From a virus: DNA of 30,315 bases. A program made the translations under genes and the position numbers. The notes under the pieces were generated by a model. The model had not been told where the DNA came from and did not search any database. It saw only the letters and a list, made by a program, of their open reading frames with translations. Location: the IMG/VR virus record IMGVR_UViG_3300010938_000538, positions 1 through 30,315 of that record. One strand, written 5' to 3'. How positions within the stretch are numbered: the stretch's first letter is position 1; each line of letters starts with the position of its first letter. Shown one piece after another: positions 421-30,315 of the stretch.

Positions 421-540
421 AATGATGTCGAGCGGTTGCCGACCCTTACACGTACCGACACGCTTGCCTTTACCCATGCCGATACCCTTACACGTGCCCT
501 TAACCGCACCTAAACACGCATACCAACACGCACCACTACG
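421..540 (-). repeat. Degenerate GGTAAGGGTA-type repeats, minus polarity
   Basis: Read on the minus strand this stretch is rich in GTAAGGGTAT, GGTAAAGGC and GGTACGTGTAAGGGT units spaced about 6 or 12 bases apart. Polarity is opposite to the other repeat blocks of the left region, and it matches the leftward gene that starts at 376. No coding frame is convincing here. Confidence 0.7.
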
Positions 541-594
541 CCAGGAACATGCGATCGCAAATGCCCGCACTTGTAACGAACGGATGGAGCATGA

Positions 595-832
595 GTGAGG
601 GGTTGATTGAGGGCGCGAGTAAAGATGCGAGTATGGCGTTGAGTATGGTGTTAAGCAAGGGTGTGAGTAAGGATGTGAGTAAGGGTATGAGTAAAGGGTA
701 TGAGTGAGAGTATGAGTAAGGGCTGAGTAAGGGGTATGAGTGAGGGTGCGAGTGAAGGGTTAAGTAAGGGCTGAGTAAGGGGTTAAGTGAGAGGTTAAGT
801 GAAGGGTTGAGTGAGAGGTGCCTGCGATCGAC
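595..832 (+). repeat. Degenerate GAGTAAGGGTAT tandem repeats, plus polarity
   Basis: About twenty imperfect copies of a GAGTAAGG / GAGTGAGG core are separated by GTAT, GCT or TTA spacers, with a basic step of roughly 6 or 12 bp. The plus strand is almost free of C. Many in-frame TAA and TGA triplets rule out rightward coding. The long leftward frame across it (rich in Ser, Leu, Pro and Tyr repeats) is an artefact of the repeat. Confidence 0.8.
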
Positions 833-926
833 ACCTATGATGCATGAGTAAGGGCGCTCCTGTGGGTACCAATGCCAATCAGGACACAATTGAAAGGTAT
901 AGAGTAGCCATAGCCAAATCATAGGA

Positions 927-1062
927 GTGCAAGCGCGGTAAAAGTGCCAGTACGGAAAGGGTGCCAGTACGGAAAGGGTGCCAGCACGGAAAGGGTGCCA
1001 GTACGGAAAGGGTATCGACGCGGTAAGGATGCCAGTACGGGGGAGGTGCCGGTACGGCAAGA
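927..1062 (+). repeat. Eight head-to-tail 17-bp repeats (iteron-like array)
   Basis: Units begin at 927, 944, 961, 978, 995, 1012, 1029 and 1046, all exactly 17 bp long. The consensus is GTGCCAGTACGGAAAGG. The copies at 944, 961 and 995 are identical and the one at 978 differs at a single base. The flanking units at 927, 1012, 1029 and 1046 are diverged. A 17-bp step is not a multiple of three, so coding is not the reason for its conservation. Direct repeats of this length and phasing are typical of iterons bound by replication initiators. That role is an inference here. Confidence 0.8.
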
Positions 1063-1100
1063 ATGCGGGTGCGGGACATTCGATCCCCATCCCTATTGCC

Positions 1101-1180
1101 GTGGGTGTAGATACAGGTCAGCACGCAGGTAAGGGCGCTCCCGTGGGTGCCGGTACAGGTCAGTACGCAGGTAAGGGCTG
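1101..1180 (+). repeat. Two direct repeats, about 38-42 bp
   Basis: Copies at 1101-1142 and 1143-1180 share GTGGGTG, then TACAGGTCAG(C/T)ACGCAGG and TAAGGGC. The motif TAAGGGCGCTCC(C/T)GTGGGT that spans their junction also occurs near 848-866, so a third partial copy lies before the 17-bp array. The region is non-coding. Confidence 0.65.
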
Positions 1181-1237
1181 TAACAAAAAACTAGTGCAAA
1201 CATCGATGCGAGGGCTAGTGCAGAACATGGGACGAGG

Positions 1238-1268
1238 ACACCCCCACCCACACTCAGGGTGGGAGGGA
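1238..1268. repeat. 31-bp hairpin element, copy 1
   Basis: The stem arms CCCACCC (1243-1249) and GGGTGGG (1257-1263) are perfect inverted repeats around the loop ACACTCA. The whole 31-bp element recurs unchanged at 1474-1504. No T-tract follows, so it is not an obvious intrinsic terminator. Confidence 0.75.
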
Positions 1269-1324
1269 CTGGAGGGTGAGAGTGCTGTGGCACGTAGGTT
1301 GCGGGGATGGGGGACTCTGGCGAT

Positions 1325-1394
1325 CGCCGCCGTACCCGCACCTCGCTCCCTCCCTTCCCCTCACCTCCCACCTCCCACACTCCCCTTCCCGTAC
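1325..1394. other. Long pyrimidine-rich tract
   Basis: From about 1338 to 1392 the plus strand is almost entirely C and T (CTCCCTCCCTTCCCC and similar) with a few A. It is preceded by a HIP1 octamer GCGATCGC at 1320-1327. The tract lies between the two 31-bp hairpin elements. Such tracts can form triplex (H-DNA) structures. No gene is visible. Confidence 0.55.
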
Positions 1395-1504: not shown

Positions 1505-1564
1505 TAAGCGGAAACGGGATGGTTCCGGCGCTGGCACCGGCAGTAACGGGTATCGTCATGACAT

Positions 1565-2503: not shown

Positions 2504-4102
2504 ATGAGAAACTGGGTGGCTGAGGGGATGGATTGGGAGATGACCCCCGAAAGGTGGCGATGGAGCGAACCGCATGCGTTCCGGTGGGGAAGCGGTCTGC
2601 GACAAGGGATAGATTTAGATCGTGACTGGGGTGAAATCCAAATACCGAGCAAAAGACAGAGTGCAACACAAGAAACACTTTATGAGACACCAAGCTTTAT
2701 GAACCCAATACAGAGAAGATACTACGCAGGAATTGGTTCGCGGGAAACGCCCCACGACGTGCTCAACCTCATGACCTCGATTGCGGAGCGGTTGGAGAAC
2801 ATGGGCTATATCCTTCGCTCCGGTCATGCTAGGGGTGCTGATAGGGCATTCGAGCTTGGCATATCCAACCCGTACATGGCACACATATACCTACCATGGG
2901 ATGACTACGGGGTAAAGCAGTACAAAGACGATCCCGGAATGCCAATCCGGGGACTCAGAATTGCTAAGTCCAGGAAATCCATCCTCGAAGACTACGAGAA
3001 GATGGTAGAGGAAGGGATCGTCAGCCCAAATCTTCCAGAGGCGCATCGCCTGCTCCACGGTCGCAATTACAGTCAGATCTATGGCATGGGGGCGGAACCT
3101 CACTCGTCCTTTGTTGTCGCCTGGACTCCAGATGGGGCGGAAACTCTAAGAGAACTGAGCAGGGACTCTGGAGGAACTGGAGTTACTATCAAACTCGCCG
3201 CCGACTTTGGGATTCCGGTATTCAATCTAAGGCGACCGGATGCAGTTGATAGGCTGTGGCGGTTTGTTACCGTAGATATGGGGCAAGTTCCGCCTACTAT
3301 CGTATCCACGGGTAGGGTTGCGTCTCCCGTCAGCGCCATAAAGGAGATGCTGATGTCCTACAAGGCAACGCCGAACCAGCTATTACCTTTGCTGGCCAAA
3401 GAATACCCGGAAGGGGCTTCCACGCTCGACCTAATGCGCGACTACATGCGCACTGCTACTACTCGTAAAGCCGGGTATGCAAATGTAGGGGATATTGTTA
3501 GGTTCACTGATGGGAGTGAGACGCTGAACCGGCTCTACGAGGTTGCTGAGGTAGACAGTGACATCATCAAAGATCTTCGCGATTACGCTGGCTTTCTAAA
3601 GCAGCAGCTTGAGGAGCAAGGACGGATCGATACCAGCATAAAGTTGTCGCCGCAGGTGATCAGATGGGCTGCATTGGAGGGATGGCATCCGCTTTACGCA
3701 TTCAGCCCCTCAAGTCCGTTTCTTCGTCAGGTGACAGGCGATAATTCAGCACAGTACAGGTTCATCCCCATCCGCACTGAGGGCGAGCGGATCCTGCGCG
3801 ATGAGAGAGGGGTACCTATTATCGATCTGCCCTCTACTACAATCATTCCCATGTCACAATACCAATCCTTGAGCAAGTGGAGGCAAGAGGTACCGGCATT
3901 TGCGCAGAAGGAGATGACTCCATACGGTCTCAATGCCCTGATGCGTACTGCATGGCTCAACCCGCAGAATGCTTACATCATCCAACCGAGGCCGAGAGCT
4001 GAGATAGATAGGATGGTGAATGATGATACTGCCTTGTCCCTACTCCTCGCTCCCCCCCAAAACGTTGTCATGCCTGATGCGCTAAGCGAAGCTGTATTCT
4101 AA
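2504..4102 (+). CDS. SLOG/DprA-like Rossmann-fold protein with a large unknown C-terminal domain
   Basis: This gene encodes 532 residues; AAGGAT lies a few bases before the ATG. Residues about 73-250 carry SLOG-superfamily marks: YYAGIGSRETP (73-83) at the first beta-strand/nucleotide loop, SGHARGAD (106-113) as the second Gly-rich loop, FVVAWTPDG (203-211) and GGTGVTIKLAADFGIPVFNL (223-242). SLOG proteins bind nucleotides or nucleotide-derived ligands, and many are linked to signalling and immunity. The first 70 residues and residues 250-532 match nothing I know. The gene lies outside the structural block, so an accessory role is likely, for example nucleotide handling or sequestering a host immune signal. 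That role is speculation. Confidence 0.8.
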   Translation: MRNWVAEGMDWEMTPERWRWSEPHAFRWGSGLRQGIDLDRDWGEIQIPSKRQSATQETLYETPSFMNPIQRRYYAGIGSRETPHDVLNLMTSIAERLENMGYILRSGHARGADRAFELGISNPYMAHIYLPWDDYGVKQYKDDPGMPIRGLRIAKSRKSILEDYEKMVEEGIVSPNLPEAHRLLHGRNYSQIYGMGAEPHSSFVVAWTPDGAETLRELSRDSGGTGVTIKLAADFGIPVFNLRRPDAVDRLWRFVTVDMGQVPPTIVSTGRVASPVSAIKEMLMSYKATPNQLLPLLAKEYPEGASTLDLMRDYMRTATTRKAGYANVGDIVRFTDGSETLNRLYEVAEVDSDIIKDLRDYAGFLKQQLEEQGRIDTSIKLSPQVIRWAALEGWHPLYAFSPSSPFLRQVTGDNSAQYRFIPIRTEGERILRDERGVPIIDLPSTTIIPMSQYQSLSKWRQEVPAFAQKEMTPYGLNALMRTAWLNPQNAYIIQPRPRAEIDRMVNDDTALSLLLAPPQNVVMPDALSEAVF

Positions 4103-4111: not shown

Positions 4112-4300
4112 ATGCCATCACCAGCGCAGAGAAGGCGACGGACTGCTAGGAAGATCTACCTGCTAGAGCAGTACCTAGCAGGTGCTATTCCCTTGCATTC
4201 CGTCAAGGTGACTGGTATATCCGACCTCAGCGACCGTGGGATTGCTGCTGAGGTGGCGCGATTGCGGTCCCTGTTGCAAGGGCGTGCATTACCTGAGTGA
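4112..4300 (+). CDS. Small basic protein, unknown function
   Basis: This gene encodes 62 residues starting MPSPAQRRRRTARK. It has a strongly basic N-terminus, then a helical region (YLLEQYLAGAIP, then DRGIAAEVARLRSLLQG). It starts 9 nt after the SLOG gene, without a clear Shine-Dalgarno, so translation may be coupled. The last 74 nt overlap the end of the convergent gene at 4227-4688. Both frames look protein-like, so either a true tail-to-tail overlap exists or one of the two is spurious. Confidence 0.5.
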   Translation: MPSPAQRRRRTARKIYLLEQYLAGAIPLHSVKVTGISDLSDRGIAAEVARLRSLLQGRALPE

Positions 4301-4688
4301 CATAGTACATCTGGTGCCATTTGTGTGCCAGGGAATCGGCTAGGGGAATGCCGCGGGCAATGGCAAGGTAGTAGAGTTCCTGTATGTCCGTCTCCCGTCT
4401 CATGATCTCCGACAGGATATCGCTGTCCGTCCACCGCCCGTACCGATTCGAAATTGGTTGGGGTGACGTGTCCTCGTATGCCTGCTCCAACGCTTCATCC
4501 ACGCGCTTGCGTCGTTCCTCTGACATGCGAGTAAACTCGTCAGGCGGGGGAATGGTGCGCCCTCGTCCCTCCGGGTTGGAATCCGTGCGGCTGGGGTAGT
4601 AGGCGCTTACATCCTTCGGTGGGTTCAGCGGGCGACCGTCAAGCGTCAAGCCTTGGTCGTGCATTAGGGCATCGAGCGAGTTGCTCAT
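4227..4688 (-). CDS. Lone leftward gene, unknown soluble protein
   Basis: This gene encodes 153 residues from the ATG at 4688; the frame stays open upstream to 4763. The protein is hydrophilic, with a Pro/Asp-rich first half (PLNPPKDVSAYYPSR) and a helical second half containing WTDSDILSEIMRRETDIQELYYLA and HKWHQMYYVTQVMHALATG. No rightward frame of quality covers 4301-4680, which supports a leftward gene. It starts only 22 bp from the rightward gene at 4711, leaving very little room for divergent promoters. The ribosome site is weak. Isolated opposite-strand genes in phages are often independently expressed accessory genes. Confidence 0.65.
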   Translation of the reverse strand: MSNSLDALMHDQGLTLDGRPLNPPKDVSAYYPSRTDSNPEGRGRTIPPPDEFTRMSEERRKRVDEALEQAYEDTSPQPISNRYGRWTDSDILSEIMRRETDIQELYYLAIARGIPLADSLAHKWHQMYYVTQVMHALATGTAIAPPQQQSHGR

Positions 4689-4710: not shown

Positions 4711-5922
4711 ATGCCATTATCCACGGCGATTGAACCGCAGATGCTTGCAAAGTTCTTAAACAATTTCCGTTCTGGTTTTGATTACCAGGCTCGAAGGCAA
4801 CAGAATCCCGGACTGACGATAGGTCTGTACGCGCAGAAGTCCATCCCCGTTTCCCTGGGCTTCAACTCTGGAAGGCTGGCTGCTGGTATTCTGACCGATG
4901 CCGTGCGCCAACCTTGGTGGATGTACAATCACCCGCTCGGTATTGCGCAGATGGTGGGAGCGAACCTGGCAAAGGTTCCTGGGATGCCTGAGGGGTACAA
5001 CCAACTCGGCGGGACGTTCCTCTCCCTTGGCGTGCTGCCCATCCTCAGCGGCAACTTCGACGTAACCAACCTCGCGCAGTTTGGTAGACCTGCGGGCTAT
5101 TCCGCGTTGTTCCCGTCGCCGCAAGACCCGACCCAAACCACAAATCCCCTAGGGGAATTTGTGGGGCGCTATTTCCTCGGACGCAGGGGAGACGTTCTGC
5201 CTTACGAACAACTGATAAAGGAACTGCCAGGTACCAGCCCAGAGGAGTACGCCCGGTACAAGGATACGATGTCGTTTAGGAACAGGGATTTCTTCGGTTT
5301 CCAGGACGAACCCATCATCCCTACCGTTATGGGTATGGCAATAGGTGCGGGAGTCGGCGCTCTGAATGCAAGAAGGAATACGCACATGGAACTCGACAGC
5401 AATCCCATTGGCCTTAAGCAGTTCAGAGGTAAGGATGGTTCTTGGCAAACAGGAGACTACGACCCCGATAATGGAATCATGGTCGATTACGGAAAGAGAG
5501 TCCCAGAAGAACTAATGGAAGTTGCCCGCAGATACGAGGAGGAGGGATGGGTACCGGAACCTCCTAGGGATGGTACCTACGGCATGGTCTTTGGCGCTAA
5601 TAGGGAGTACAAGGAAGTGCTTAACGATGATGGGATGAGTTTTCCGGGGTACGGGCGGTTCAAGCGCATCGCCTTTCCCATCGTTGGAGCTATTGCCGGT
5701 GGATTGGTGGGGTCTGTAGTTCCTATCCTTACAAACTTGGGTGTAATACGCAGTGGCACATCTCTCCAAGGAAAGCCATCCGTTGCACTGATGGGGTATG
5801 AGGTTCCCCTCGATGCAATTGTAGGAACCGGCTTTGCTGCAGCGGCAATGCACTACGGCCTCAAGAATGCAATCAGGCTGGGGCAGTTTGACTATCCAGG
5901 CGTAAATCGGATTATGTCTTGA
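4711..5922 (+). CDS. Large protein with C-terminal membrane segments, putative virion/ejection protein
   Basis: This gene encodes 403 residues. ATG 4711 was preferred because the longer frame uses a TTG at 4681 that overlaps the divergent gene. The N-terminal half is mixed and includes PVSLGFNSGRLAAGI and a hydrophobic stretch around TFLSLGVLPILSGN. Three further hydrophobic segments follow: TVMGMAIGAGVGALNA (about 208-223), IAFPIVGAIAGGLVGSVVPI (about 320-339) and AIVGTGFAAAAMHYGL (about 370-385). The Gly/Ala-rich small-residue helices resemble those in the block at 6084-9990, so it may be an outlying member of that set. No enzymatic motif seen. Confidence 0.75.
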   Translation: MPLSTAIEPQMLAKFLNNFRSGFDYQARRQQNPGLTIGLYAQKSIPVSLGFNSGRLAAGILTDAVRQPWWMYNHPLGIAQMVGANLAKVPGMPEGYNQLGGTFLSLGVLPILSGNFDVTNLAQFGRPAGYSALFPSPQDPTQTTNPLGEFVGRYFLGRRGDVLPYEQLIKELPGTSPEEYARYKDTMSFRNRDFFGFQDEPIIPTVMGMAIGAGVGALNARRNTHMELDSNPIGLKQFRGKDGSWQTGDYDPDNGIMVDYGKRVPEELMEVARRYEEEGWVPEPPRDGTYGMVFGANREYKEVLNDDGMSFPGYGRFKRIAFPIVGAIAGGLVGSVVPILTNLGVIRSGTSLQGKPSVALMGYEVPLDAIVGTGFAAAAMHYGLKNAIRLGQFDYPGVNRIMS

Positions 5923-5929
5923 GTACTTG

Positions 5930-6075
5930 CGCTGGAAAGGTGCTGGTGGTGTAAGGGTGCTGGTGCGGGTAATGTAAAGGTGTCTGGTAGTGTAAGGGTA
6001 TTGGTACCGATGCAGTACGAGTACCGGTGAAGTACGGGTATCGGTGTAATGCAGGTACCGGTAGTGACGTAAAAG
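5930..6075 (+). repeat. 6-bp-phased GGTGTA/GGTACC repeats, plus polarity
   Basis: This 146-bp intergenic stretch is made of GGTGCT, GGTGGT, GTAAGG, GGTATT and GGTACC steps, mostly spaced 6 bp, with few C on the plus strand. It separates the gene ending at 5922 from the one starting at 6084. GTACCGGT occurs twice near its right end. Confidence 0.7.
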
Positions 6076-6083
6076 GTTAACTT

Positions 6084-6464
6084 ATGGATATTGGTACGCA
6101 ATTACAAGACCTTACCAACGCCCTAAAGGAAAGGTGGGCGATTACCGTTCCCCTGGGAGTGGCGGCGATCGGAGGTACCGGTCTAGCCGTCGCAAACGCT
6201 ATGGGTGCCAACGACCCACCCTCAGCCAATGACGTTACCTCGATGCAGCGGGAGCAGCTACGGCAAGTGTCCTTGGATCTCCCCCCTCTCTCAACCTACG
6301 GTACACCATTGTCAGACCTAGAGCGGTTGCAGCAACGGGTAAAGATCGCCAAAGAGCTACAGGATTATCCCGCTACTCTGCAAAAGGCCGTGCGAGACGT
6401 GCAGGTACAGGCGCAACTTCAGTTCCTCGCGGCACAGAGCCTCGGTAGTCCCTACTGGACGTAA
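6084..6464 (+). CDS. Small protein with one N-terminal membrane helix
   Basis: This gene encodes 126 residues. After a short amphipathic start (MDIGTQLQDLTNALKERW) comes one hydrophobic segment (WAITVPLGVAAIGGTGLAVANAMG, about residues 18-41). The remainder is a hydrophilic helical region (LSDLERLQQRVKIAKELQDY, VRDVQVQAQLQFLAAQ). It starts directly after a repeat block; AAAAGG about 6 nt upstream is the only ribosome-site candidate. It is first in the run of hydrophobic genes and may be an internal virion protein. Family unknown. Confidence 0.75.
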   Translation: MDIGTQLQDLTNALKERWAITVPLGVAAIGGTGLAVANAMGANDPPSANDVTSMQREQLRQVSLDLPPLSTYGTPLSDLERLQQRVKIAKELQDYPATLQKAVRDVQVQAQLQFLAAQSLGSPYWT

Positions 6465-10980: not shown

Positions 10981-11018
10981 TGTGGTATGGGTGTAGGTAA
11001 GGGCACGGGAAAGGGAAG
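10981..11018 (+). repeat. Short GGTAAGGG-type repeat leader
   Basis: The 38-nt spacer (GGTATGGGTGTAGGTAAGGG and GGGAAAGGGAAG) is a short example of the plus-polarity intergenic repeat. Its final GGGAAG, directly before the ATG at 11019, may serve as the ribosome site. Confidence 0.55.
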
Positions 11019-13151: not shown

Positions 13152-13754
13152 ATGACAGGACGACTGGCTCTATACCTCGGCTCTAGCGTGCTGGGAGCGA
13201 TCGCGGGGGCAGCTGCATCTCCATTATTCGGAAAAGACGAGGAGGGGCAGCAGAGAGTGAGTCCGTTGGATGCGGCATTGGTTTCGGGGATGCTCGTCCC
13301 TCCCGTCGCGATGACCCTGATGCGTCGATTTCCCGATGCAGGTTCCTGGCTGCAACCAGCAGTCGAAAGGACGGTAGAGGTCGTGAAAGAACAGCCAGGG
13401 TTCCTTCCCTTTATATCTCCCAGCAGGGTATGGGCATTTTCAAAGGGGCGCGGTACGGATTACAAGTCGTACGTTAGATATGCGGGGGCGGGGAACACCT
13501 TTAGAAGTCCCGAACCCGGAGAGTTTCCAGATCCCGTGTGGGATTTGCTGCGAAAGCTGGCTTTCAAACAACCGGGCACGCAGATCTACATCCCAAACCT
13601 GAACCTCAGCGGTATCGCAATCCGCAGAGATAAGAAAGATAGGTCTGGGGCACCCATTCACGCATTTATCGTGACTAATAGCGAGGCACTGCAACCCGAA
13701 TGGTATAAGCCTTACCTTGATGAAATAGAAAGCTTAATGGCAGGGAACGGATAG
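13152..13754 (+). CDS. Hydrophobic-hairpin protein, tandem paralogue A
   Basis: This gene encodes 200 residues with AGGAGA 4 nt before the ATG. The N-terminus (MTGRLALYLGSSVLGAIAGAAASPLFGKDEEG) holds a hydrophobic helix followed by a charged turn and a second hydrophobic helix (AALVSGMLVPPVAMTLM). The C-terminal domain (about 95-200) is soluble, with VWAFSKGR, TQIYIPNLNLSGIAI and EALQPEWYKPYLDEIESLMA. All these blocks recur in the next gene, so the pair arose by tandem duplication. The position between the terminase subunits is unusual and its role there is unknown. Confidence 0.8.
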   Translation: MTGRLALYLGSSVLGAIAGAAASPLFGKDEEGQQRVSPLDAALVSGMLVPPVAMTLMRRFPDAGSWLQPAVERTVEVVKEQPGFLPFISPSRVWAFSKGRGTDYKSYVRYAGAGNTFRSPEPGEFPDPVWDLLRKLAFKQPGTQIYIPNLNLSGIAIRRDKKDRSGAPIHAFIVTNSEALQPEWYKPYLDEIESLMAGNG

Positions 13755-16168: not shown

Positions 16169-16210
16169 TGCGGTAAGGGTAAAGGCAAGGCAAGGGTAAA
16201 GGCAAGGGTA
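16169..16210 (+). repeat. GGTAAAGGCAAGGG repeat leader of the portal gene
   Basis: The 42-nt spacer consists of GGTAAGGGTAAAGGCAAGGC, then AAGGGTAAAGGCAAGGGTA, directly before the portal ATG. Every unit contains AAGG, so the repeat itself supplies the Shine-Dalgarno. This is a compact example of the genome-wide plus-polarity intergenic repeat. Confidence 0.65.
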
Positions 16211-18253: not shown

Positions 18254-18749
18254 TAGCAGTACAGGTAGAGACTTGCGAGGGGAACCCCTTGCCTCTCTGC
18301 GTGACATAATCCAGCATTTCGGCAAGGGCGATGCTGCCACGGCTTTGGCAGAGCTGAACAAGACAGCATGTGCGTTAGAGGACATGTACAACGCCCTTCT
18401 CCAGAAGTACGCGCAGCTGGAAGCGTATGCCGCTACTATCCAGGACGAAGCGTTGCGGATGGGAACCCTGCTCTGCTCCCCTTCGTATTTGAGCGATTAC
18501 TACCGGCGCTTGGAGTACGAAGTGGCAGAGTTGCCTTCCATTCGTAAATTCCGCGCCACCTACCCATCTGCTACCTACGAACAGTACGCGGAGTGGCTGA
18601 ACCAGTCTCACCAATCCAGCGACACCATTCCCGCACCTCCAAATCCCATTGCAATGTCCGGTATCGACCCATGGCGCTATATCCAAGGAGATCCGACGCA
18701 AGCATGGCGCGTAATAGACCAAGCCGGTATCGGCGCACTGTTGCAGTAG
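17982..18749 (+). CDS. Putative capsid scaffolding protein
   Basis: This gene encodes 255 residues. I chose the ATG at 17982; in-frame starts at 17949 and 17874 are possible. The ribosome site is weak (AGAACGA). Residues 1-85 are Pro/Gln/Tyr/Val-rich and disordered-looking (YPVQQYAPALPVQG). Residues 95-160 are helical (ATALAELNKTACALEDMYNALLQKYAQLEAY). The C-terminus is short and mixed. Position between portal and major capsid protein is the classic place for a scaffold. The first 272 nt overlap the portal gene in a different frame. Scaffold identity is inferred from context. Confidence 0.65.
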   Translation: MAQANYLPVQSPQVVPFPTPQTVPASQATIGQTYPSYPVQQYAPALPVQGWVGGGIPTAQVSYAPQPTPTQPYLYGMVQQAQNASRQSDLDSSTGRDLRGEPLASLRDIIQHFGKGDAATALAELNKTACALEDMYNALLQKYAQLEAYAATIQDEALRMGTLLCSPSYLSDYYRRLEYEVAELPSIRKFRATYPSATYEQYAEWLNQSHQSSDTIPAPPNPIAMSGIDPWRYIQGDPTQAWRVIDQAGIGALLQ

Positions 18750-18759: not shown

Positions 18760-19983
18760 ATGTCATTCGTAGATAAGCTGGAAATCATCATGGGGGCGGA
18801 ACTGTATCGTCCCTCACCAACGTACATCGCTAAGTACGTGATGCAGCCACCCGTGGTGCACGACTTCAGTATGGTGCCAGGTTCCACCGTTCGCATGAAA
18901 CGCTACGGCTTCTGGAACGACCCCGGCTCGTACACGGAAGATGCCCGTTCCCGCGACAACGGCCAGATCATTGGCACTGGTGGTAGTCGTTCCTTGCCTC
19001 AAGAAGAGGTAATGCTGACCCTACGTGAATTCACGGGGCCGACAAGTGGCGACCCTAACAATGTCAACGAACCGGGGACGCTGCGCATTCCACTACGGGA
19101 ACTTATACAGGCACAGCGAAACCTGTACGACATGGCAAGCGCCGATGCGTTTCACGATTCCATCGGTTCCCGGACATTGTTCGAGGATTACCGTCGGTGG
19201 CAGGATGCGGTGTACATCAACCGCGCCCTCAGTGCCAATGCCGCAACGCCAACGGGCGGTCAGATGGCTAACAGTCGCCAAGGGGGATACTATAACCCAT
19301 CCGGCGTTCCCAACGGCGGCACGTACAACGCAAGTACCGGCGTTCCCCGCGTGGATATTATCCGCGACGTTACCCAAGTGGTAGCAGATATGCGCACGCG
19401 AATGGTTCCACCTTTCCAATCCAACCTGGGAGATTGCTACCACGCTCTCGCATCTCCCAACTTCATGCGCCAATTGCGTCAGGATCCGTCCTTCCGCGAA
19501 GCAGCACGCTACCCTGGCATTCCTATCGCAATGCTAGGAGCGGGACCGACTCCTAATAGCGCACCAGCCATGCCGCCCATGATGAACTGGACTCTCAGCC
19601 CTAACGAGTTAATTTCCCGTGGTGGGTTCTACGGACAGACCGGGTTCATGCACTCGCAGGTGATGCCTGTCGGGGTGTTCTGGGAGGGTATCCGCTGGTT
19701 CGAGTGCCAGACCTTACCGACGGCTACGGTGCAGTTGACCACCACGGGACTGAGTTCGCAGGGGTACAGTGACGGAACCGGGGTGAACCGTACCGCAGAA
19801 CTGGCGATCGTCTTTGGTCGCGACCTGGTAGGTGAAGGGGTGTGGAGCCGGGGGCCGAGCGTCCTCCTGAACAGCGACAACGACTACGGGCGGTTCCTCA
19901 TCGCCATCTGGCAGATCTACGCAGGGTACACAACCCTGAACCCGAACAACGTCACCGTAATGCGCACGTTCAATCCCTTCTGA
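18760..19983 (+). CDS. Major capsid protein (HK97-fold, possibly N4 gp56-like)
   Basis: This gene encodes 407 residues with TAGGAGTT before the ATG. An N-terminal helical/extended arm leads to VHDFSMVPGSTVRMKRYGFW. The middle holds LGDCYHALASPNFMRQLRQDPSFREAARYPG, resembling the conserved 'address a fixed position, then L..D..F..A' stretch of N4 gp56-family capsid proteins. A later GGFYGQTGFMHSQVMP and C-terminal AIWQIYAGYTTLNPNNVTVMR fit the same family. Hundreds of copies form the icosahedral shell. It follows the scaffold candidate by 10 nt. The exact capsid family is uncertain, but the capsid call from order and length is good. Confidence 0.8.
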   Translation: MSFVDKLEIIMGAELYRPSPTYIAKYVMQPPVVHDFSMVPGSTVRMKRYGFWNDPGSYTEDARSRDNGQIIGTGGSRSLPQEEVMLTLREFTGPTSGDPNNVNEPGTLRIPLRELIQAQRNLYDMASADAFHDSIGSRTLFEDYRRWQDAVYINRALSANAATPTGGQMANSRQGGYYNPSGVPNGGTYNASTGVPRVDIIRDVTQVVADMRTRMVPPFQSNLGDCYHALASPNFMRQLRQDPSFREAARYPGIPIAMLGAGPTPNSAPAMPPMMNWTLSPNELISRGGFYGQTGFMHSQVMPVGVFWEGIRWFECQTLPTATVQLTTTGLSSQGYSDGTGVNRTAELAIVFGRDLVGEGVWSRGPSVLLNSDNDYGRFLIAIWQIYAGYTTLNPNNVTVMRTFNPF

Positions 19984-21692: not shown

Positions 21693-22022
21693 CTACAAGG
21701 GAATGTGATACAGGCCGTCCGAGCATCCATACAACTCTCTAGAGAGGTTTTGCACTACATCTAATGGTTCGCGGTCGGTGATGCAAAGTCCCCCATCGCC
21801 CAGCGGAATCCCGCAAAGGCCGTGGATGCAATCATCAAGGTGGCTGGGCGAGTATAGCGTCCTATCCCCCCTAGTCTCTTCGTAAAAGGTCAGGAAGGAC
21901 ACAACCCCATGTCCGCGGGGAATGCTATACACAGTGCCACCATAAGGCAAAACTTTTACTTCGTTGCCTGTACTCATTTCTTTACCCTTATCCATCCTTA
22001 CCCTCTCCTTGCCTGTACTCAT
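21693..22022 (-). CDS. Lone leftward gene in the structural operon (moron candidate)
   Basis: This gene encodes 109 residues from the ATG at 22022 (GGAGG 8 nt upstream). Two further in-frame starts at 21995 (AAGGAG upstream) and 21977 give 100 and 94 residues. The first 16 residues (MSTGKERVRMDKGKEM) come from repeat DNA: ATGAGTACAGGCAA occurs twice, once for each MSTG. The body contains five Cys (HLDDCIHGLCGIPLGDGGLC, and ELYGCSDGLYH) and no known motif. It has its own minus-polarity repeat leader and a hairpin beyond its end, so it looks like an independently expressed insertion. Confidence 0.65.
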   Translation of the reverse strand: MSTGKERVRMDKGKEMSTGNEVKVLPYGGTVYSIPRGHGVVSFLTFYEETRGDRTLYSPSHLDDCIHGLCGIPLGDGGLCITDREPLDVVQNLSRELYGCSDGLYHIPL

Positions 22023-22040
22023 CCCTTCAACCTCCACATT
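21950..22040 (-). repeat. Minus-polarity GGTAAGGAT/ACAGGCAAGG repeats
   Basis: On the minus strand the block reads GAGTACAGGCAAGGAGAGGG, then TAAGGATGGATAAGGGTAAA, and so on. It repeats ATGAGTACAGGCAA with a 45-nt step and supplies the possible starts and ribosome sites of the leftward gene. Polarity again matches the adjacent gene. Confidence 0.65.
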
Positions 22041-22148
22041 CCAGCTCTCCCTCCAGTACGCTATCGATCCTAATGGTAAGATAATTCCAGTTGCCAATAG
22101 GGGCGCAACCGTCAGGATCGCAGCACGTCCATTGCAAGGAAAGGGAGA

Positions 22149-22607: not shown

Positions 22608-22685
22608 GAGTGTAGGTGCGGGTATGGATACAAGCAAGAGCGTAGATGTAGGTATGAATGCAAGTATGGAACCAGTGGAAAGCAT
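22608..22685 (+). repeat. GTAGGTATGAATGCAAG-type repeats running into a coding start
   Basis: GTGTAGGTGCGGGTATGGAT, then GTAGATGTAGGTATGAATGC and AAGTATGG are degenerate copies of the plus-polarity repeat. They contain four in-frame ATGs (22624, 22654, 22666, 22684) of the following gene, so the repeat forms its N-terminus. Confidence 0.55.
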
Positions 22686-23055
22686 GAAAGATGTCGAGCA
22701 ATTGGTATGGCCTTTAGTTTCCCGTATAGGAGAGGAGATTGGCTTTGTCTCCAACTCCTTGGAAAAGGCGATACTGTATGCCGCTATCCAAAAGGTACTT
22801 TCGCTTCTGTGGAATACATTGGAAGGAGTGCCTATCCTGATGAAGTATCTAAACAATCCTCAGTTAGGAGCGCCGAATTCCACGATCCGGCAGTTGCAGA
22901 AGAGCATTGCGCGAAGCATCAACAAGTTTGCTAACATTCCCTGGCTATCAGAGGAGCAGGAGCAGATTGTTATCGAGAGGGTGGTAGGTATCATCCTCAG
23001 TTACCTGGTAGAAGGGCAGTCCATTTGGTCTCTAGTGCAGAAGGAGGAAAAGTAG
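22624..23055 (+). CDS. Helical protein, unknown
   Basis: This gene encodes 143 residues from ATG 22624, although the in-frame Met at residues 11, 15 and 21 could each start the protein because the first 20 residues come from repeat DNA. The rest is alpha-helical and moderately hydrophobic (LEKAILYAAIQKVLSLLWNTLEGVPILMKYL, then VIERVVGIILSYLVEG). The C-terminal helix is amphipathic more than membrane-spanning. It overlaps the next gene by one base (TAGTG). Unknown role; a tail assembly chaperone or small tail protein is possible. Confidence 0.7.
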   Translation: MDTSKSVDVGMNASMEPVESMKDVEQLVWPLVSRIGEEIGFVSNSLEKAILYAAIQKVLSLLWNTLEGVPILMKYLNNPQLGAPNSTIRQLQKSIARSINKFANIPWLSEEQEQIVIERVVGIILSYLVEGQSIWSLVQKEEK

Positions 23056-25066: not shown

Positions 25067-26449
25067 ATGCCACAGATAGGACAACCAACTGCCGCAGCAC
25101 CCTACGGGAGAACGAACACCATCCTCCGTATCGATGGGACGCGGGTGACCAGACGGGGGAAGGGGCGGGTATGCCTCCTATGCCATGGGGATTCAACCCC
25201 ATCCAACCCATCCAGGGCAGGGAAGCTCCTGTACGGCTACGGACTGTACGCCCTGCCCCTTCCCCTACTGGCAGAGACTCCGTACTTTCCCACAGAGAAA
25301 AATGTCCTGCGGCTCTTTGCCTCACCCTTACGCCTTCCGTACTCCCTACACCACTACCCATCCCGGCACTTAGATGGGTGGGAGAGCGACGCGAGGTACC
25401 CGTACGCGCTGAAGTATGACGGCAGGAGTCCCCGTGGGGAAGGGAGAGGGCTAGAGGTACAGGCATCTATCGCCCCTGGTCGCCCTATCCACCTCGTAGA
25501 AGAGTACCAAATACCATCCGTGCAAAGGGATGAGTTCGCACTTTGGTACTATGACATCCCCTTCCCCACAGCTCGCGTATTGGACGCGCGCTATGACTGG
25601 TTTGTGGGACTCGCGCATCCGCAGCCCATTGCGATGTATCCGAGGATCGTCGACCTACAGGATTGGAGAGTACGTTCGACACCAGAGTGGGGATTGGGAC
25701 GCATCCTCGAACCGTACTCACCACCAGAGCCGCCATCGCCGCCAGAGCCACCAACACCTCCCATAATTCCTGGCGATGCGCATGGGGATGCAGCGCAGTT
25801 AGTACTTGCTGCCCACGACGGCACAAGAGGGAGTGACATCATCGTACAGGCGTTTACCCGTGCCGATATCCAAGCTGGGACGAACGTTGGTAACAATTCC
25901 ACAAGGGCGTACGGCGACCGATACTTCAGCATCTCCTATTTCACGGGCACGTCCCTGGCAGGTGGCTCGGTTACTCCAATGAATCTATCTTCCCAGTTCA
26001 GTGGAGATAACAATGCCTTCGGGACATATGACTACGGTGCGGTTAATGGGTTCCAGGTTTACAGCACCGGTAACGGCCTCGGTACGTTCTTCGGGTGGCG
26101 GGTCTATCGCCCTGCAGGCGCAACATCTATCAGTGTCAACGGCTCCTTTGCAGGGAATACGAGTACCTGGTCGGGCGGGAGCACGTACTACGACTGGCAG
26201 GTTGATTTCTTCGATGGCACCGTTACCACCACCATTGACAGCGGAACGATCCTTGCCACAGTCTCTGATGGGCTTACATCCGTCACCGGGGATACAACCC
26301 TATCCGTTTCACCACAGGTATTCACAAACCCCATCGCGTACCTTCAGATGTTCTGGCGCGTGCGGGATAACGTCGGAGGCTCGTCCAACACCGCCAACCA
26401 CGTTAATATCTCAGATGCAGGCATTACCTACACCATTGGATTTGCGTAG
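25067..26449 (+). CDS. Modular tail-fibre protein with Pro-rich hinge
   Basis: This gene encodes 460 residues. Residues 1-215 form one domain rich in Tyr, Pro and Arg (for example YGYGLYALPLPLLAETPYFP). Residues about 216-235 are a hinge of PEPPSPPEPPTPP type. Residues 240-460 are a beta-rich domain with many Gly, Ser, Thr and Asn (SISVNGSFAGNTSTWSGGSTYYDWQVDFF), as expected of a carbohydrate- or receptor-binding module. No Shine-Dalgarno is seen before the ATG; the 39-nt gap from the tailspike gene has no other feature. Position in the appendage block supports a fibre role. Confidence 0.65.
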   Translation: MPQIGQPTAAAPYGRTNTILRIDGTRVTRRGKGRVCLLCHGDSTPSNPSRAGKLLYGYGLYALPLPLLAETPYFPTEKNVLRLFASPLRLPYSLHHYPSRHLDGWESDARYPYALKYDGRSPRGEGRGLEVQASIAPGRPIHLVEEYQIPSVQRDEFALWYYDIPFPTARVLDARYDWFVGLAHPQPIAMYPRIVDLQDWRVRSTPEWGLGRILEPYSPPEPPSPPEPPTPPIIPGDAHGDAAQLVLAAHDGTRGSDIIVQAFTRADIQAGTNVGNNSTRAYGDRYFSISYFTGTSLAGGSVTPMNLSSQFSGDNNAFGTYDYGAVNGFQVYSTGNGLGTFFGWRVYRPAGATSISVNGSFAGNTSTWSGGSTYYDWQVDFFDGTVTTTIDSGTILATVSDGLTSVTGDTTLSVSPQVFTNPIAYLQMFWRVRDNVGGSSNTANHVNISDAGITYTIGFA

Positions 26450-26534
26450 GGTGCAAGTGCTAGTCAGCGTGAGAACGAGTGCGGGTACGGGCACGGGTAC
26501 GAGTACGGCAGGGGTACGTAGTGAGGGAGAAGCA
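26450..26534 (+). repeat. GGTACGGGCACGGGTACGAG repeat, plus polarity
   Basis: An 85-bp spacer whose middle (about 26479-26520) consists of GCGGGTACGGGCACGGGTAC, then GAGTACGGCAGGGGTACG. The 6-bp GGTACG step is clear. It ends in GAGGGAGAAG, the ribosome site of the next gene. Confidence 0.65.
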
Positions 26535-26536
26535 AG

Positions 26537-27280
26537 ATGGCAGAGTTAGGTGAGAAGATCGTCCGCTCTCCAGAGGAACTCAGCCAGATCGAGTCCCTGT
26601 GGAATCGGTACCAACGGGCGCTAGAGATAGAACCGTCGTCGTTCAAGTTCGTGCCCGTCTCTGCTGAGTCCGGGTTGGAACTCGACGTGAGGTTCTTCAA
26701 GGTGCCCAAAGCGGAGATGGAAGATGCGGCATTCGACCATCGCATTACCGCACGGGTCATACGCAACGAGACCGTAGCACTGAACGAGCAGGAGTACGAG
26801 GTGCAGGTGGATGGGCGTAAGGTCAAGTCCCTGGGACGATACCGTTACCTCGTCCCAGAGGGAATGCCCATCAGTCCGAGCGTGCAAGGGAAACAGCTCG
26901 ATGGTTCGTACGTGGTCATTGACAGCAGAGGGAACACCATCGCCCTGGTAACTGCAGAGGGAGAGATAGTCCCTGTAGGATTGCCGAGTATCATCAGTGA
27001 AAGGATACGAGAAGGGAAGTCGATTGGCTATCGGTGTACCTGTCAGGACTACAGCGGCCAGTACCAAAAGCTCGTCCCCTTTAGTTTGGGGCAAGTGCAA
27101 TCGCGCTACCGTCCGCTCGGTTCCATTGGCGCGTGCAAGCACATCTACGCCCTTCGTATCAGTCGCAGGGAACCCGTGGCCATACCCTCTGACGTGCCTC
27201 AGTCGCCACCCAAGACGCAAAGGGCGAAGAAGCTTGGAACGGGAGTAAAAGGATTGACCGGGGTGAAATGGGTGCCGTAG
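26537..27280 (+). CDS. SWIM-type zinc-finger protein
   Basis: This gene encodes 247 residues with GAGGGAGAAG before the ATG. Cys167, Cys169, Cys200 and His202 (YRCTCQDY ... GACKHIYAL) form the CxC-Xn-CxH signature of a SWIM zinc finger, with a 30-residue insert. SWIM domains bind DNA or protein. Residues 1-160 are a mixed alpha/beta region (QEYEVQVDGRKVKSLGRYRY, YVVIDSRGNTIALVTAEGEI). The C-terminus is basic (KTQRAKKLGTGVKGLTGVK). In appendage operons such zinc-binding proteins can be structural; a regulatory role is also open. Confidence 0.75.
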   Translation: MAELGEKIVRSPEELSQIESLWNRYQRALEIEPSSFKFVPVSAESGLELDVRFFKVPKAEMEDAAFDHRITARVIRNETVALNEQEYEVQVDGRKVKSLGRYRYLVPEGMPISPSVQGKQLDGSYVVIDSRGNTIALVTAEGEIVPVGLPSIISERIREGKSIGYRCTCQDYSGQYQKLVPFSLGQVQSRYRPLGSIGACKHIYALRISRREPVAIPSDVPQSPPKTQRAKKLGTGVKGLTGVKWVP

Positions 27281-27445
27281 ATGTCAATGCGAGTAAGGTA
27301 AAGATGTAAGTGCGGGTAAGGATATAAGCGCGGTAAAAGCGTAAGTAAAGGTAAGGATATAGGCGCGGTAAGGGTATAGGTACGGGTAAGGATAGGCAAA
27401 GATGAAGGTAAGGGTGTAGGTGAAGGTAAGGTGGTAGGATGGCAT
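27281..27445 (+). repeat. GGTAAGGATATAGGCGC repeat block, plus polarity
   Basis: About 165 bp of 6/12-bp-phased units, for example GGTAAGGATATAAGCGCGGT, GGTAAGGATATAGGCGCGGT and AAGGGTATAGGTACGGGTAA. GGTAAGGATATA(A/G)GCGCGGTAA is a near-perfect direct repeat of about 24 bp. No rightward frame crosses it. The leftward frames are repeat artefacts. Confidence 0.75.
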
Positions 27446-27469: not shown

Positions 27470-27871
27470 ATGGCAACACGTAGGACAGCGCATGGGGAGC
27501 AAATCCCCGCCGTGGTTGTAGTCAATGAAGATGGAAGTATAGCCAACCTCAGCGGCGGCGGCGGTGGTAGTGGTGGCAGCAGTGCCATCGTCAGAGTATC
27601 CCTGGTAAGCATCAACGGCACCGTAACGGCAGCCAATACGTGGCAGCAACTAGCACCGGCAAATGCAGGACGCAATTTCCTGCACATCCACAACCCAAGC
27701 AGCACCGCCGTATTGTCTATCGGCATTGGAGCGGCAGGGGCAGAGGCGTTTCTGGAGGTTCTGAACCCAGGGGACAGCCTAACGTTCCCCGCTGGCAACG
27801 TATCCCCCACCAATCGCCTTGCCGTTCGCAGTGACATGGCGGGTACCCCTTACTACGCAACGGAGGGTTGA
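27470..27871 (+). CDS. Small beta-sandwich virion protein
   Basis: This gene encodes 133 residues with GTAGGAG directly before the ATG. A flexible Gly/Ser linker (residues about 29-38) follows an N-terminal strand region. Residues 50-130 (ANTWQQLAPANAGRNFLHIHNPSSTAVLSI, LEVLNPGDSLTFPAGNVSP) match a common phage beta-sandwich found in decoration and fibre-associated proteins. It ends 3 nt before the long fibre gene and is probably its partner or a trimer-base protein. Confidence 0.7.
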   Translation: MATRRTAHGEQIPAVVVVNEDGSIANLSGGGGGSGGSSAIVRVSLVSINGTVTAANTWQQLAPANAGRNFLHIHNPSSTAVLSIGIGAAGAEAFLEVLNPGDSLTFPAGNVSPTNRLAVRSDMAGTPYYATEG

Positions 27872-27874
27872 GCT

Positions 27875-29662
27875 ATGGGCATCGTTACCCGTTCTCTATC
27901 GCGGTTCCTATCAGCCTTGGCAAGCCTGCAAGCGGTGGTAAATACCAAGCTATCGGCGGTGGCTGTGGACGGGGTCACGATTATCGGTAACGGCACTCCG
28001 GTCAATCCCTTACAGGTCGTAGGCGGTGGAACCGGAAGCGTCTCATTCATCGAGTCCCCGGCTCAAACGTGGACAAGCGATAGCACGGTGGTTTTTCCCC
28101 ACGGACTGTCGGTTCGACCCACCACCGTACAAGTCTGGCTGCGGTGCGTAGTTGCCAACAACGGATACGCCGTGGGAGACAGGATTCAGGTGGGTAGCAC
28201 TGACTCCAGCGCAAACAATCGCGGCTTTGTCGTTTCCGCCGACCTGAACAATATCTACATCCGAATCGGTACGGGCGGAATTCCGATCCTGAATAGTGCA
28301 AACAATGCTGCAGCTCTCTCCGGGTCGGGAACCGCAAACTGGTTGATGTACGTGGTCTACCCTGGAGAACCGGGTGCGCTTGCCGACGGGGATAAGGGAG
28401 ACATCACTGTCAGTGCGGGTGGGAGTACCTGGACGATCGATCCCGATGCAGTAACCTACGCCAAATTCCAGAATGCAACCGCAGGAAACGTCGTCCTAAC
28501 CCGTGCGGCAAGTACGCCAGGAGACTACGCGGAAACGGCGCTGGCACCGTATCAGTTACTCGGTCGAGGAGCAGGCAACATCAGCGCCATTACCCTCGGC
28601 AGCAACCTCTCAATGGCTGGTACTGTCTTAAACGCTACGGGTGGGAGTGGACTGACCCAGGTGGTTGTCAGTACCAACCAGATGGCAACGGCGGGTGAAC
28701 TCTACACCTTCACCGGACTCAGTGCCGACCGCACCTTGACGCTCCCTGCCAGTGCCGCAGCAGGCGATCGCGTGGGAGTATGTTTGGCCGACCGAACCTA
28801 CTCCGTTACGATCGCGCTGAACGGGTTGAGGTACCAAGGATTCGAGAACGACCGGATCCTAGTACCCGGACACGACTTTGGGTTAGTGGTAGTACTGACC
28901 TACGTCAATGCGGCTGTAGGTTGGAATTCCTCGCACTTTATCCCTGCCAAGTTCTGGACGGGCTTCACCACCTGGTGGGATATGTCCGCGCTGGGGAGTA
29001 CGGGAGGGGTTCAAGGTCAGTTAATCTCTGCTGCTGGAAACGGTAGGCTGCTCCAGCGCGGGAGCGGCTACATCAAAAGCAACAAGCAGTACCGAGGACG
29101 GCTGCACCTGGGAGTGGACTTTAACGCTACGGTTGGCGCCGCCTACAGCACCTTCGGCGATCTGGCAGAAGCAGACCACGCAGGAAATTTACTAACGGTG
29201 GTTCTGTTCCAGGTCTACACGCCGCCGAGTACGCCGTACTTCAACGCGCTCTTTTCTAAATTCGAACTACTTCAACGAAGCTGGAGCAATTACGCGAACG
29301 TAGACGCGCTAGGGAACCCAGTCCACGGTTTCTCCATCAGCGGGAATGGTGCCACAAGTACGATCGTCAGCAACGCAAACTACCTGGATTACAACACCAC
29401 CTATCTAGGTATCGGTTACTACGACGGCACTGCAATCGGATCGGTCGTGTACGGCGGTGCGTACAACGGCGCAACGGCAACCGTAGCCTATAACGCAGGG
29501 ATCTATAACAGCACCGCTTCCGTGGAGTGCGGTGCATTTGACAATGCGAGTTCGGGTTGCTTGTCAGGCTGGATCGGCTACGCGGGAAGTGCAAACCTGA
29601 CCTATACCGCCGCCATCGGGGAAGAGCTAGGGGCAGGTCTCAGGTACCCGTGGAACCTTTAG
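27875..29662 (+). CDS. Long tail-fibre protein
   Basis: This gene encodes 595 residues with GGAGGG 8 nt before the ATG. Residues 1-55 are an attachment region. Residues about 170-250 contain the tail-fibre shaft signature GDKGDITVSAGGSTWTID followed by AVTYAKFQ and YQLLGRGAGNISAITLGSNL. The C-terminal 300 residues are beta-rich (YFNALFSKFELLQRSW, YLGIGYYDGTAIGSVVYGGA), similar in style to laminin-G/concanavalin-like sugar-binding domains. Host recognition is the expected role. The last 23 nt overlap the convergent gene at 29640-30110. Confidence 0.8.
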   Translation: MGIVTRSLSRFLSALASLQAVVNTKLSAVAVDGVTIIGNGTPVNPLQVVGGGTGSVSFIESPAQTWTSDSTVVFPHGLSVRPTTVQVWLRCVVANNGYAVGDRIQVGSTDSSANNRGFVVSADLNNIYIRIGTGGIPILNSANNAAALSGSGTANWLMYVVYPGEPGALADGDKGDITVSAGGSTWTIDPDAVTYAKFQNATAGNVVLTRAASTPGDYAETALAPYQLLGRGAGNISAITLGSNLSMAGTVLNATGGSGLTQVVVSTNQMATAGELYTFTGLSADRTLTLPASAAAGDRVGVCLADRTYSVTIALNGLRYQGFENDRILVPGHDFGLVVVLTYVNAAVGWNSSHFIPAKFWTGFTTWWDMSALGSTGGVQGQLISAAGNGRLLQRGSGYIKSNKQYRGRLHLGVDFNATVGAAYSTFGDLAEADHAGNLLTVVLFQVYTPPSTPYFNALFSKFELLQRSWSNYANVDALGNPVHGFSISGNGATSTIVSNANYLDYNTTYLGIGYYDGTAIGSVVYGGAYNGATATVAYNAGIYNSTASVECGAFDNASSGCLSGWIGYAGSANLTYTAAIGEELGAGLRYPWNL

Positions 29663-30110
29663 GTGCAGTTTGCTGTACTGGTATCCTGTACCAGATGTAG
29701 AGGTAGGCCTGGAAACCGACGAGCAGAATGCCGATGAGGAAAAAGGGCACGACACCGGCCAGGGAAGAGCGGATGAAATCGCCCCACTTATCCCTTACCG
29801 ATTGCCTATCGGTTTCGTAGGATTCGAGAATGCTTATCCTCTTCTCCAGGTGCTCGACGTTGCCCTCGGTCACGTGTACTTCCTTGCGTAGGGCATCGAC
29901 GCTGTTCTTGAGACCCGACACCTGAGCCGGAATGCCATTACCATCACCTATGATGAGATTGCGCAGGTCGATCAGCTCGTTCTCTAGCCGTTCCTGTTGC
30001 GCTTGCAGCACCGAGACCGCAGCCTCAACCTTCAATGCCACTGATTGAAGGTTGAGCAGAGTCTCTACAGCAACATCCTCCGCGCGTTCCATATCCCTGA
30101 CCTGCGTCAT
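29640..30110 (-). CDS. Coiled-coil protein with C-terminal membrane helix, holin/XhlA-like candidate
   Basis: This gene encodes 156 residues from ATG 30110. An in-frame ATG at 30092 has a better ribosome site (AGGTCAGGGAT). Residues 12-100 form a long coiled coil (VLQAQQERLENELIDLRNL, NVEHLEKRISILE). They are followed by KWGDFIRSSLAGVVPFFLIGILLVGFQAYLYIW, a single membrane helix at about 117-140, and a short polar tail. This layout resembles XhlA-type haemolysin/holin partners of phage lysis cassettes. No endolysin is in the window. It lies tail-to-tail with the fibre gene. Confidence 0.7.
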   Translation of the reverse strand: MTQVRDMERAEDVAVETLLNLQSVALKVEAAVSVLQAQQERLENELIDLRNLIIGDGNGIPAQVSGLKNSVDALRKEVHVTEGNVEHLEKRISILESYETDRQSVRDKWGDFIRSSLAGVVPFFLIGILLVGFQAYLYIWYRIPVQQTAPKGSTGT

Positions 30111-30139
30111 GGCAGCATTCTATCACCTGGGATAGAGAC

Positions 30140-30315
30140 AGCAGCATGGGGTGCAAGGTAGTGGGAAGGTATGGGTGGCTGCGGGTATGGATATGGGTGA
30201 TTGCGGGTATGCGTACCAGTGAAAGAATGCAGCAAAGGTAAGGACAAAGGCAAAGGCAAAGGTACGGGTAAGGGTACAGGTAAGGGTACGGGTAAGGGTA
30301 CAGGTAAGGGTACGG
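30140..30315 (+). repeat. GGTAAGGGTACG tandem repeat running off the window, plus polarity
   Basis: The last ~58 bp (30258-30315) form a nearly perfect tandem of alternating GGTAAG and GGTAC(G/A) hexamers, about ten units, preceded by degenerate GGTATGGAT and GGCAAA units. The polarity predicts a rightward gene just beyond the window. The adjacent leftward gene starts on the other side of this block. Confidence 0.8.

Follow-up and report, generated by a model that had tools for sequence, protein, structure and literature searches.

Gene-oriented arrays of a degenerate hexamer in the intergenic spacers of a putative S-EIV1-like cyanophage

The short tandemly repeated repetitive (STRR) sequences of cyanobacteria are built from a heptamer unit. 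Oriented short repeats between genes are already described in bacteria, for example the TAACTGA direct repeats of marine Beggiatoaceae and some cyanobacteria, which are reported as short, tandem and intergenic (MacGregor, 2015; PMC4679880). In the 'Maribeggiatoa' genome, according to the same account, they are mostly forward and lie just upstream of start codons, and a post-transcriptional role has been proposed but is unproven (PMC4679880). The quadruplex-forming GGGNATC repeats of Xanthomonas and Nostoc are described as G-rich, intergenic and strand-biased relative to genes; their unit is a heptamer, four units with G tracts are preferred, and near starts the non-coding strand is favoured (Rehm et al., 2015; PMC4692102). 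Archaeal Borg elements carry tandem repeats that are element-specific and virtually absent from the host, show an A bias on the coding strand and occur both between and within genes; the units given in that account are perfect, 18-21 nt long, and preserve the frame within genes (PMC9879509). Here we describe tandem arrays of a degenerate hexamer in IMG/VR virus record IMGVR_UViG_3300010938_000538, the entire linear record of 30,315 bp being the window of this analysis. Judging from gene order and protein likeness, the record is a 30-kb fragment from the lineage of cyanophage S-EIV1. Searches of the open-licence literature listed no comparable phage repeat among their top matches, which agrees with a preliminary description of this DNA that knew of no named phage repeat class with this behaviour.

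The nearest published likeness is to the TAACTGA repeats, as that account presents them (PMC4679880). Like them, the window arrays consist of short tandem intergenic units running forward before start codons (in all eight arrays near a start, three of which overlap it). They differ in having a degenerate hexamer instead of a heptamer, longer arrays and a phage carrier. Canonical ribosome-binding sites, described as rare beside TAACTGA repeats, are present here, a Shine-Dalgarno (SD) match being found at all eight genes and overlapping the array at six. The GGGNATC repeats, as published, are also G-rich, intergenic and strand-biased, but the window arrays have the opposite strand preference and no G3 quartet. 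With the Borg repeats, as characterized in the source, the window arrays share element specificity and a base bias of the coding strand, and differ by degenerate 6-mers with frame-breaking slips.

We read the arrays, with a probability of about 0.48, as a non-coding expansion of a degenerate hexamer that would have occurred in this phage's lineage, within transcribed spacers, and would have inherited its strand polarity. Phage genomes are compact, yet here the arrays take up 1,145 of 2,894 intergenic bases (on a hand-edited gene list), and relatives have a short spacer where they can be compared. This phage thus offers a clean case for how degenerate short repeats arise and why their strand polarity persists. 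If the arrays are functional, they would constitute an RNA-level control element of phages that is invisible to gene-based annotation; if not, they show the extent of non-coding repeat growth that a virus tolerates. The twelve arrays, with their scores under a hidden Markov model (HMM), are as follows.

442-520, minus strand: hexamer array upstream of the leftward open reading frame (ORF) 2-376, 65 nt from its start codon; HMM 40.2, no slips; leave-one-out z 25.6.
587-817, plus strand: with 231 bp the longest array, lying in the divergent region 377-1719; HMM 156.5, 18 slips; leave-one-out z 17.8; Tandem Repeats Finder (TRF) rows at 640-820.
925-1075, plus strand: hexamer array with a 17-bp higher-order repeat; HMM 79.0; TRF period 17.
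1101-1177, plus strand: low-scoring array with a 42-bp direct repeat; HMM 22.4; TRF period 42.
5936-6063, plus strand: hexamer array ending 20 nt before the ATG at 6084; HMM 75.6; spacer 38-42 bp in four relatives (synteny and alignment).
10984-11015, plus strand: short array, 84% of its spacer, ending 3 nt before the ATG at 11019; HMM 22.4.
16172-16218, plus strand: array between the genes for terminase and portal, running 8 bp into the latter (start codon at 16211); HMM 32.8.
21952-22029, minus strand: inverted array overlapping the start of a possible leftward gene, 21693-22022; HMM 46.3.
22608-22669, plus strand: array reaching into the predicted N-terminal end of ORF 22624-23055; HMM 35.2.
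26448-26532, plus strand: array, 95% of spacer 26450-26536, ending 4 nt before the ATG at 26537; HMM 44.5.
27277-27431, plus strand: array beginning at the stop codon of 26537-27280 and ending 38 nt short of the ATG at 27470; HMM 98.7.
30165-30315, plus strand: array reaching the record end, its downstream gene lying beyond the record; HMM 96.8.

The arrays were delimited with a cyclic HMM that allows one-base slips, fitted to the blocks of the preliminary description and to 889-1180; being fitted on spacer blocks, it biases the array borders and the unit grammar toward that profile. When the cyclic model was fitted unsupervised to the entire window, it drifted to the general purine-rich periodicity of coding DNA, and that fit was discarded. 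The log-likelihood was -1577 for period 6 and between -1795 and -1853 for periods 4, 5, 7, 8 and 9, which puts period 6 ahead of each other period tried by more than 200 nats and ahead of period 7, the period of STRR units, by more than 250. Scanning both strands with a cut-off of at least 18 bp gave 12 arrays of 32 to 231 bp, 1,276 bp in total, 10 on the plus and 2 on the minus strand; 12 second-order Markov-shuffled control strands gave none. The autocorrelation of intergenic DNA at lag 6 has a z of 16.9. In leave-one-out scoring, which is not fully independent in that the borders came from the all-block model, every array exceeded all 60 composition shuffles (z 7.6-37.6).

The consensus is G-T(C)-R-H-R-R, that is, by position, G/A, T/C, A/G, A/C/T (hardly ever G), G/A and G/A. 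The 228 units comprise 75 distinct full units, far from the perfect units of Borg repeats, and there are 53 one-base slips in the 1,276 bp, so that the arrays keep no reading frame. The preliminary description had built its blocks from GGTAAG, GGTACG, GGTATG and GAGTAA. These hexamers are real, with 40 occurrences on the assigned strand against 1 on the opposite strand in its ten blocks (86 on the plus and 32 on the minus strand over the whole window), but the true unit is looser: the block at 5930-6075 fits the period-6 model while containing none of the four exactly. Its list of spacers was also incomplete, the arrays at 925-1075 and 1101-1177 being absent from it.

Array content was related to a list of 38 genes, the output of a coding-score caller with hand edits. 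A 49-codon ORF at 561-707 (caller score 8.8), which lies inside an array, was dropped as probably spurious, and 4112-4300, 4227-4688 (minus strand), 17983-18749 and 21693-22022 (minus strand) were added. Arrays fill 80-95% of the five co-directional array-holding spacers of at least 20 bp, 74% of the right-edge spacer, 40% of the region 377-1719 and 6% of spacer 22023-22148. Filling in the co-directional spacers is in this sense all-or-none, as 12 other spacers of at least 20 bp are free of array, and it speaks for the expansion reading.

Eight arrays reach a start codon or come to within 65 nt of it, and each of them has the sense orientation of the gene concerned: 442-520 and 21952-22029, both on the minus strand, and 5936-6063, 10984-11015, 16172-16218, 22608-22669, 26448-26532 and 27277-27431. 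The overlapping ones are 16172-16218, 21952-22029 and 22608-22669. With random strands the chance of eight in eight is 1/256. Six of the eight sit among plus-strand genes, however, so only the two inverted arrays discriminate between following the gene and following one strand of the genome. For leftward ORF 2-376 the coding score is modest and the SD match good (-9.3 kcal/mol); leftward ORF 21693-22022 was not called by coding score, and its SD match is -11.4 kcal/mol. Neither has a homologue among the phage records searched. The earlier claim that repeat polarity follows the adjoining gene therefore holds for all eight start-proximal arrays, and the flip it described at the leftward genes 1-376 and 21693-22022 fits both inverted arrays, the second gene being the less certain of the two. 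The block given as 30140-30315 lies beside the start of the leftward gene 29640-30110, yet points away from it; whatever gene follows on the right falls beyond the record end. The polarity rule is thus well supported near starts; as a genome-wide rule it is not proven.

Relatives of the phage nearly lack the arrays. A first set, 33 viral loci found through the terminase plus S-EIV1 (34 loci, 434,706 bp), contains one array segment, of 25 bp. A second, the best 80 of at least 594 loci found with a capsid profile (971,295 bp), contains two, at a minimum segment length of 24 bp that every window array exceeds; at least two contigs are common to both sets. The intergenic lag-6 z reaches at most 4.5 in terminase relatives of at least 8 kb (16.9 in the window) and at most 3.7 in the 49 loci of at least 10 kb among those best 80 capsid relatives. 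One spacer can be compared directly. A gene pair matching 4711-5922 and 6084-6464 is present in four of six loci examined (L005, L008, L011 and L015), where its spacer measures 38-42 bp, against 161 bp, mostly array, in the window (5923-6083). A start context of the TTAACTTATG type closes the spacer in these relatives (TTAGTTTATG in L015), and TTAACTTATG also closes that of the window. The near-absence of arrays in relatives, together with the shorter spacer in four of them, favours a lineage-specific gain, which is the simplest reading of these sequences. That the gain took place beside a kept start context is supported by the four relatives for this spacer; for the other spacers we infer it from the scarcity of arrays in kin.

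The arrays probably lie in polycistronic RNA between cistrons, because the five co-directional spacers are mostly array and no listed promoter-like site is inside an array: of the 11 sigma-70-like sites listed, one, on the opposite strand, touches 5936-5938. A transcript-level setting, as proposed earlier, is thus made plausible by the 80-95% fill of co-directional spacers. Under the expansion reading, tandem G-T(C)-R-H-R-R arrays would have grown in short spacers that are transcribed, most of them bounded by one gene's stop codon and the following gene's start context. Since most array-bearing spacers hold little but array, the array RNA would be carried as additional untranslated spacer of polycistronic messages. 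The polarity may derive from the seed: if sequence adjacent to a ribosome-binding site, purine- and G-rich on the sense strand, was amplified, the array would inherit its polarity and flip with the gene. The hexamer grammar keeps strong SD matches near the coding level, which would make a long tract possible with few false starts. On this account the arrays would do no more than mildly tune spacing or expression, and would be no dedicated regulatory system.

Several observations weigh against this expansion. Under simple slippage, likeness should be greatest between neighbours. Identity is 51% for adjacent units, 59% for those separated by more than 8 units and 53% between arrays. Unit position 4 is almost never G, and at the other five positions most changes are transitions, with roughly 1-11% transversions at each; neither feature is accounted for by a neutral origin. 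The cluster at 587-1177 is on the plus strand with no close downstream gene, 542 bp from the next listed one, which starts at 1720, and the claim that a block at 595-832 lies beside a gene start failed, there being no well-supported start at that place. A single spacer could be compared with kin; its alignment supports the right end only and does not distinguish an old spacer kept inside the array from one that was replaced. Formally, the arrays may instead have been lost in the clade to which the relatives belong.

The main rival to a lineage-specific expansion is that the arrays are multivalent sites for a host or phage RNA-binding protein, much as has been proposed for TAACTGA repeats, with a periodic GTRHRR tract immediately before starts controlling translation or stability of the downstream cistron. 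Its appeal lies in a strict position grammar common to all 12 arrays, in unit identity that does not drop with distance, and in sense polarity combined with closeness to start codons; the scarcity of UU dinucleotides in the arrays (13 against 44.7 expected by composition) would moreover spare U-rich cleavage sites. Such sites would have to cope with array lengths varying from 32 to 231 bp, with an element nearly missing from the relatives searched and with 12 further spacers of at least 20 bp that hold no array, and we consider them possible but unlikely. Avoidance of Rho was weighed and dropped, since cyanobacteria are not known to have Rho. A further rival, in line with the SD-like leaders of the preliminary description, takes the purine-rich tract as a multiple ribosome-binding or standby site. 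In its favour are the motifs AAGG and GAGG and a mean pairing with the anti-SD sequence that is stronger than in coding DNA (-3.85 against -1.77). The best SD match overlaps the array in six of the eight array genes, lying wholly inside it in two, and all eight have a best SD duplex of -6.0 kcal/mol or better. Strong windows (-8 kcal/mol or better), however, make up 3.1% of the arrays, about the coding level (2.7%), against 15.0% in composition shuffles, and the best SD averages -8.25 in array genes (n=8) and -7.00 in the other listed genes (n=30), much the same, so a gene has no need of a long tract. Weak folding is seen in some arrays, but the values range from -0.01 to -0.36 kcal/mol/nt, and 5 of the 12 fold as strongly as the coding mean (-0.26 kcal/mol/nt) or more; an unstructured leader as a general property was rejected on these values. 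The edges of an array can supply a ribosome-binding site, its bulk is not a row of strong ones, and arrays of SD leaders are a poor candidate.

A polar DNA element serving replication, packaging or recombination, or acting through R-loops on the G-rich non-template strand, would account for the GC skew of 0.39-0.81 on the assigned strand of the ten original blocks and for 10 of 12 arrays lying on one strand, as expected of motifs that mark the strand of replication. It sits badly with the two inverted arrays at leftward ORFs (one of them weakly supported), with arrays that mostly end at gene borders, and with relatives that manage without arrays; we think it improbable. A quadruplex of the G3 type is disfavoured: there are no four-fold G3 quartets in the 12 arrays, 8 of which have G2-type quartets, with G4Hunter scores of 0.53-1.34, highest in 10984-11015. 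Protein coding is likewise disfavoured. Repeats in which Gly/Ser codons alternate with Lys/Thr/Met/Ala codons, such as low-complexity phage proteins contain, have one sense frame (RGT RHR) that is free of stops by construction, the array at 22608-22669 overlaps the start of ORF 22624, and the last array can be read as Gly-Lys-Gly-Thr. The 53 one-base slips, where coding repeats would have frame-keeping indels, the 17-bp higher-order unit, and the Y/R restriction at third positions, which bars synonymous transversions that coding would permit, make this very improbable. Hardly credible, too, is an assembly artefact or contamination by an array-rich bacterium. The record does end inside an array and similar arrays occur in some Verrucomicrobiota genomes, but the arrays stand between co-oriented phage genes, once before a start context kept in four relatives, and they are degenerate rather than collapsed copies.

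Similar arrays occur in other phages and in bacteria. A pattern scan found a second phage, IMGVR_UViG_3300046739_000141 (loci L253 and L419; 19 kb), with seven GATTAA/GAGTAA arrays ahead of many of its genes, all sense and all in spacers between plus-strand genes; the genes called in a 12.6-kb part, which has 62% GC, all run in one direction, so polarity is confounded there as well. Its capsid belongs to PHROG 1328, unlike the capsid family of the window phage. The arrays of this phage and of Verrucomicrobiota resemble those of the window in their purine-rich period-6 unit. It is a quite doubtful proposition that the window phage carries a sense-strand RNA code, in which degenerate GTRHRR arrays that arose in its lineage ahead of many cistrons would be tunable multivalent docking tracts for one RNA-binding protein, array length would set the translation or stability of each late gene, and the GATTAA/GAGTAA phage would have reached the same solution independently. 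In viral loci fetched by a TAAG pattern, 71 matches in called genes are sense, 10 are antisense and 28 are intergenic, among the matches listed; in their co-directional spacers 11 are sense and 3 antisense, again among the matches listed and with look-alike loci merged by eye. Other phages, then, lean toward the sense orientation too, more weakly.

G391 is a metagenome-assembled genome (MAG) of Chthoniobacter, by inference Verrucomicrobiota, that was itself picked for its matches; in its phylum, 24 of 240 genomes have RGTAHG-type matches. Three of the genomes have more than 100, some of the matches are of GGGTACG type, and reversed-pattern controls are mostly zero. In 19 regions from nine such genomes, chosen for containing matches, co-directional spacers hold 10 sense and 4 antisense arrays, 9 arrays lie between convergent and 2 between divergent genes, 3 lie in genes and 7 at region edges. 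These bacterial arrays differ from those of the window in such mixed placement and, in some sets, in having G at the avoided position 4. That position is G in 0 of 68 units in the window arrays (1 of 59 with the originally drawn block borders) and in 0 of 36 in the second phage; the bacterial sets give 30/138, 22/52 and 3/32, and also 0/12, 1/29, 0/12 and 0/27. Avoidance of G was accordingly rejected as proof of selection, the bacterial sets being mixed and some also near zero. In regions L420 and L421 of G391, hexamer arrays of opposite strand lie near each other between convergent genes, like a terminator hairpin.

In viral contigs, four units of GGTAMG matched 119 stretches and the TAAG-pattern scan at least 119. 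Of 14 GGTAMG stretches read, 13 were GGGTAC/GGGTCC/GGGGAC arrays and were set aside as a different element. Long arrays of that type in phage contigs (L142, L152, L063, L132 and others) can be read as Gly-(Tyr/Ser/Asp) repeat proteins, and in L142 and L152 the array begins at, or close to, an in-frame ATG. A scan of genome contigs for the arrays gave at least 117 stretches. Among 386 cyanobacterial genomes, five have an array match with at most 2 mismatches. A cyanobacterial MAG from the genome-contig scan, G387, has 17 matches, 10 of which are perfect fourfold GGTAAG and the remainder close. Two of its contigs, when read, proved rich in other interspersed repeats, and no tie to this phage was established. 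No host carrying matching arrays was found in the genome-contig scan or among the 386 cyanobacterial genomes.

The carrier phage belongs to a cyanophage lineage; three marker genes were used for its placement.

14522-16168, plus strand: terminase large subunit gene, PHROG 38 (E 4.6e-56).
16211-18253, plus strand: portal-like virion structural protein gene, PHROG 20475 (E 3.9e-116), 33.5% identical to its S-EIV1 counterpart; 'portal' is our own reading of a family labelled virion structural protein.
18760-19983, plus strand: major capsid protein gene, PHROG 1357.

Among 50,697 phage records, the portal-like protein has a single relative, that of Synechococcus phage S-EIV1 (33.5% identity over 91% of the query). 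Identities to S-EIV1 are 37% for the terminase (over 334 aa), 34% for the portal-like protein and 39% for the capsid, and these genes and two more are in the same order as in S-EIV1. The capsid is 62-63% identical to those of relatives L005 and L008. Terminase matches occur in 3 of the 386 cyanobacterial genomes (best E 1.3e-78) and in 4 of the 240 genomes from the phylum of G391 (best E 2.7e-14). A nucleotide search of phage records with the window gave no match, Rfam and tRNA scans of the window were empty, and a capsid query without a profile gave no match and a tail-gene query one weak locus.

The window has 55% GC, which is high for its phage family (median 46%, range 36-60% in 80 capsid relatives), and contains four GCGATCGC sites, against 0.58 expected. 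The gene at 2504-4102 encodes a DprA-like protein of 532 residues (PHROG 768 over residues 71-255, E 3.4e-40), extended by a long additional C-terminal part; 848 phage records match it, none covering more than 80% of the query. The adjoining genes 13152-13754 and 13767-14438 have clearly similar N-termini (GRLALYLGSS... and GRLAIYLGSS..., read by eye from the DNA), pointing to a tandem gene duplication. A 27-bp element forming a strong GC hairpin (about -19 kcal/mol per 51-nt segment) is present in two identical copies, at 1241-1267 and 1477-1503; the second, read leftward, is followed by a T-rich tail and resembles a terminator.

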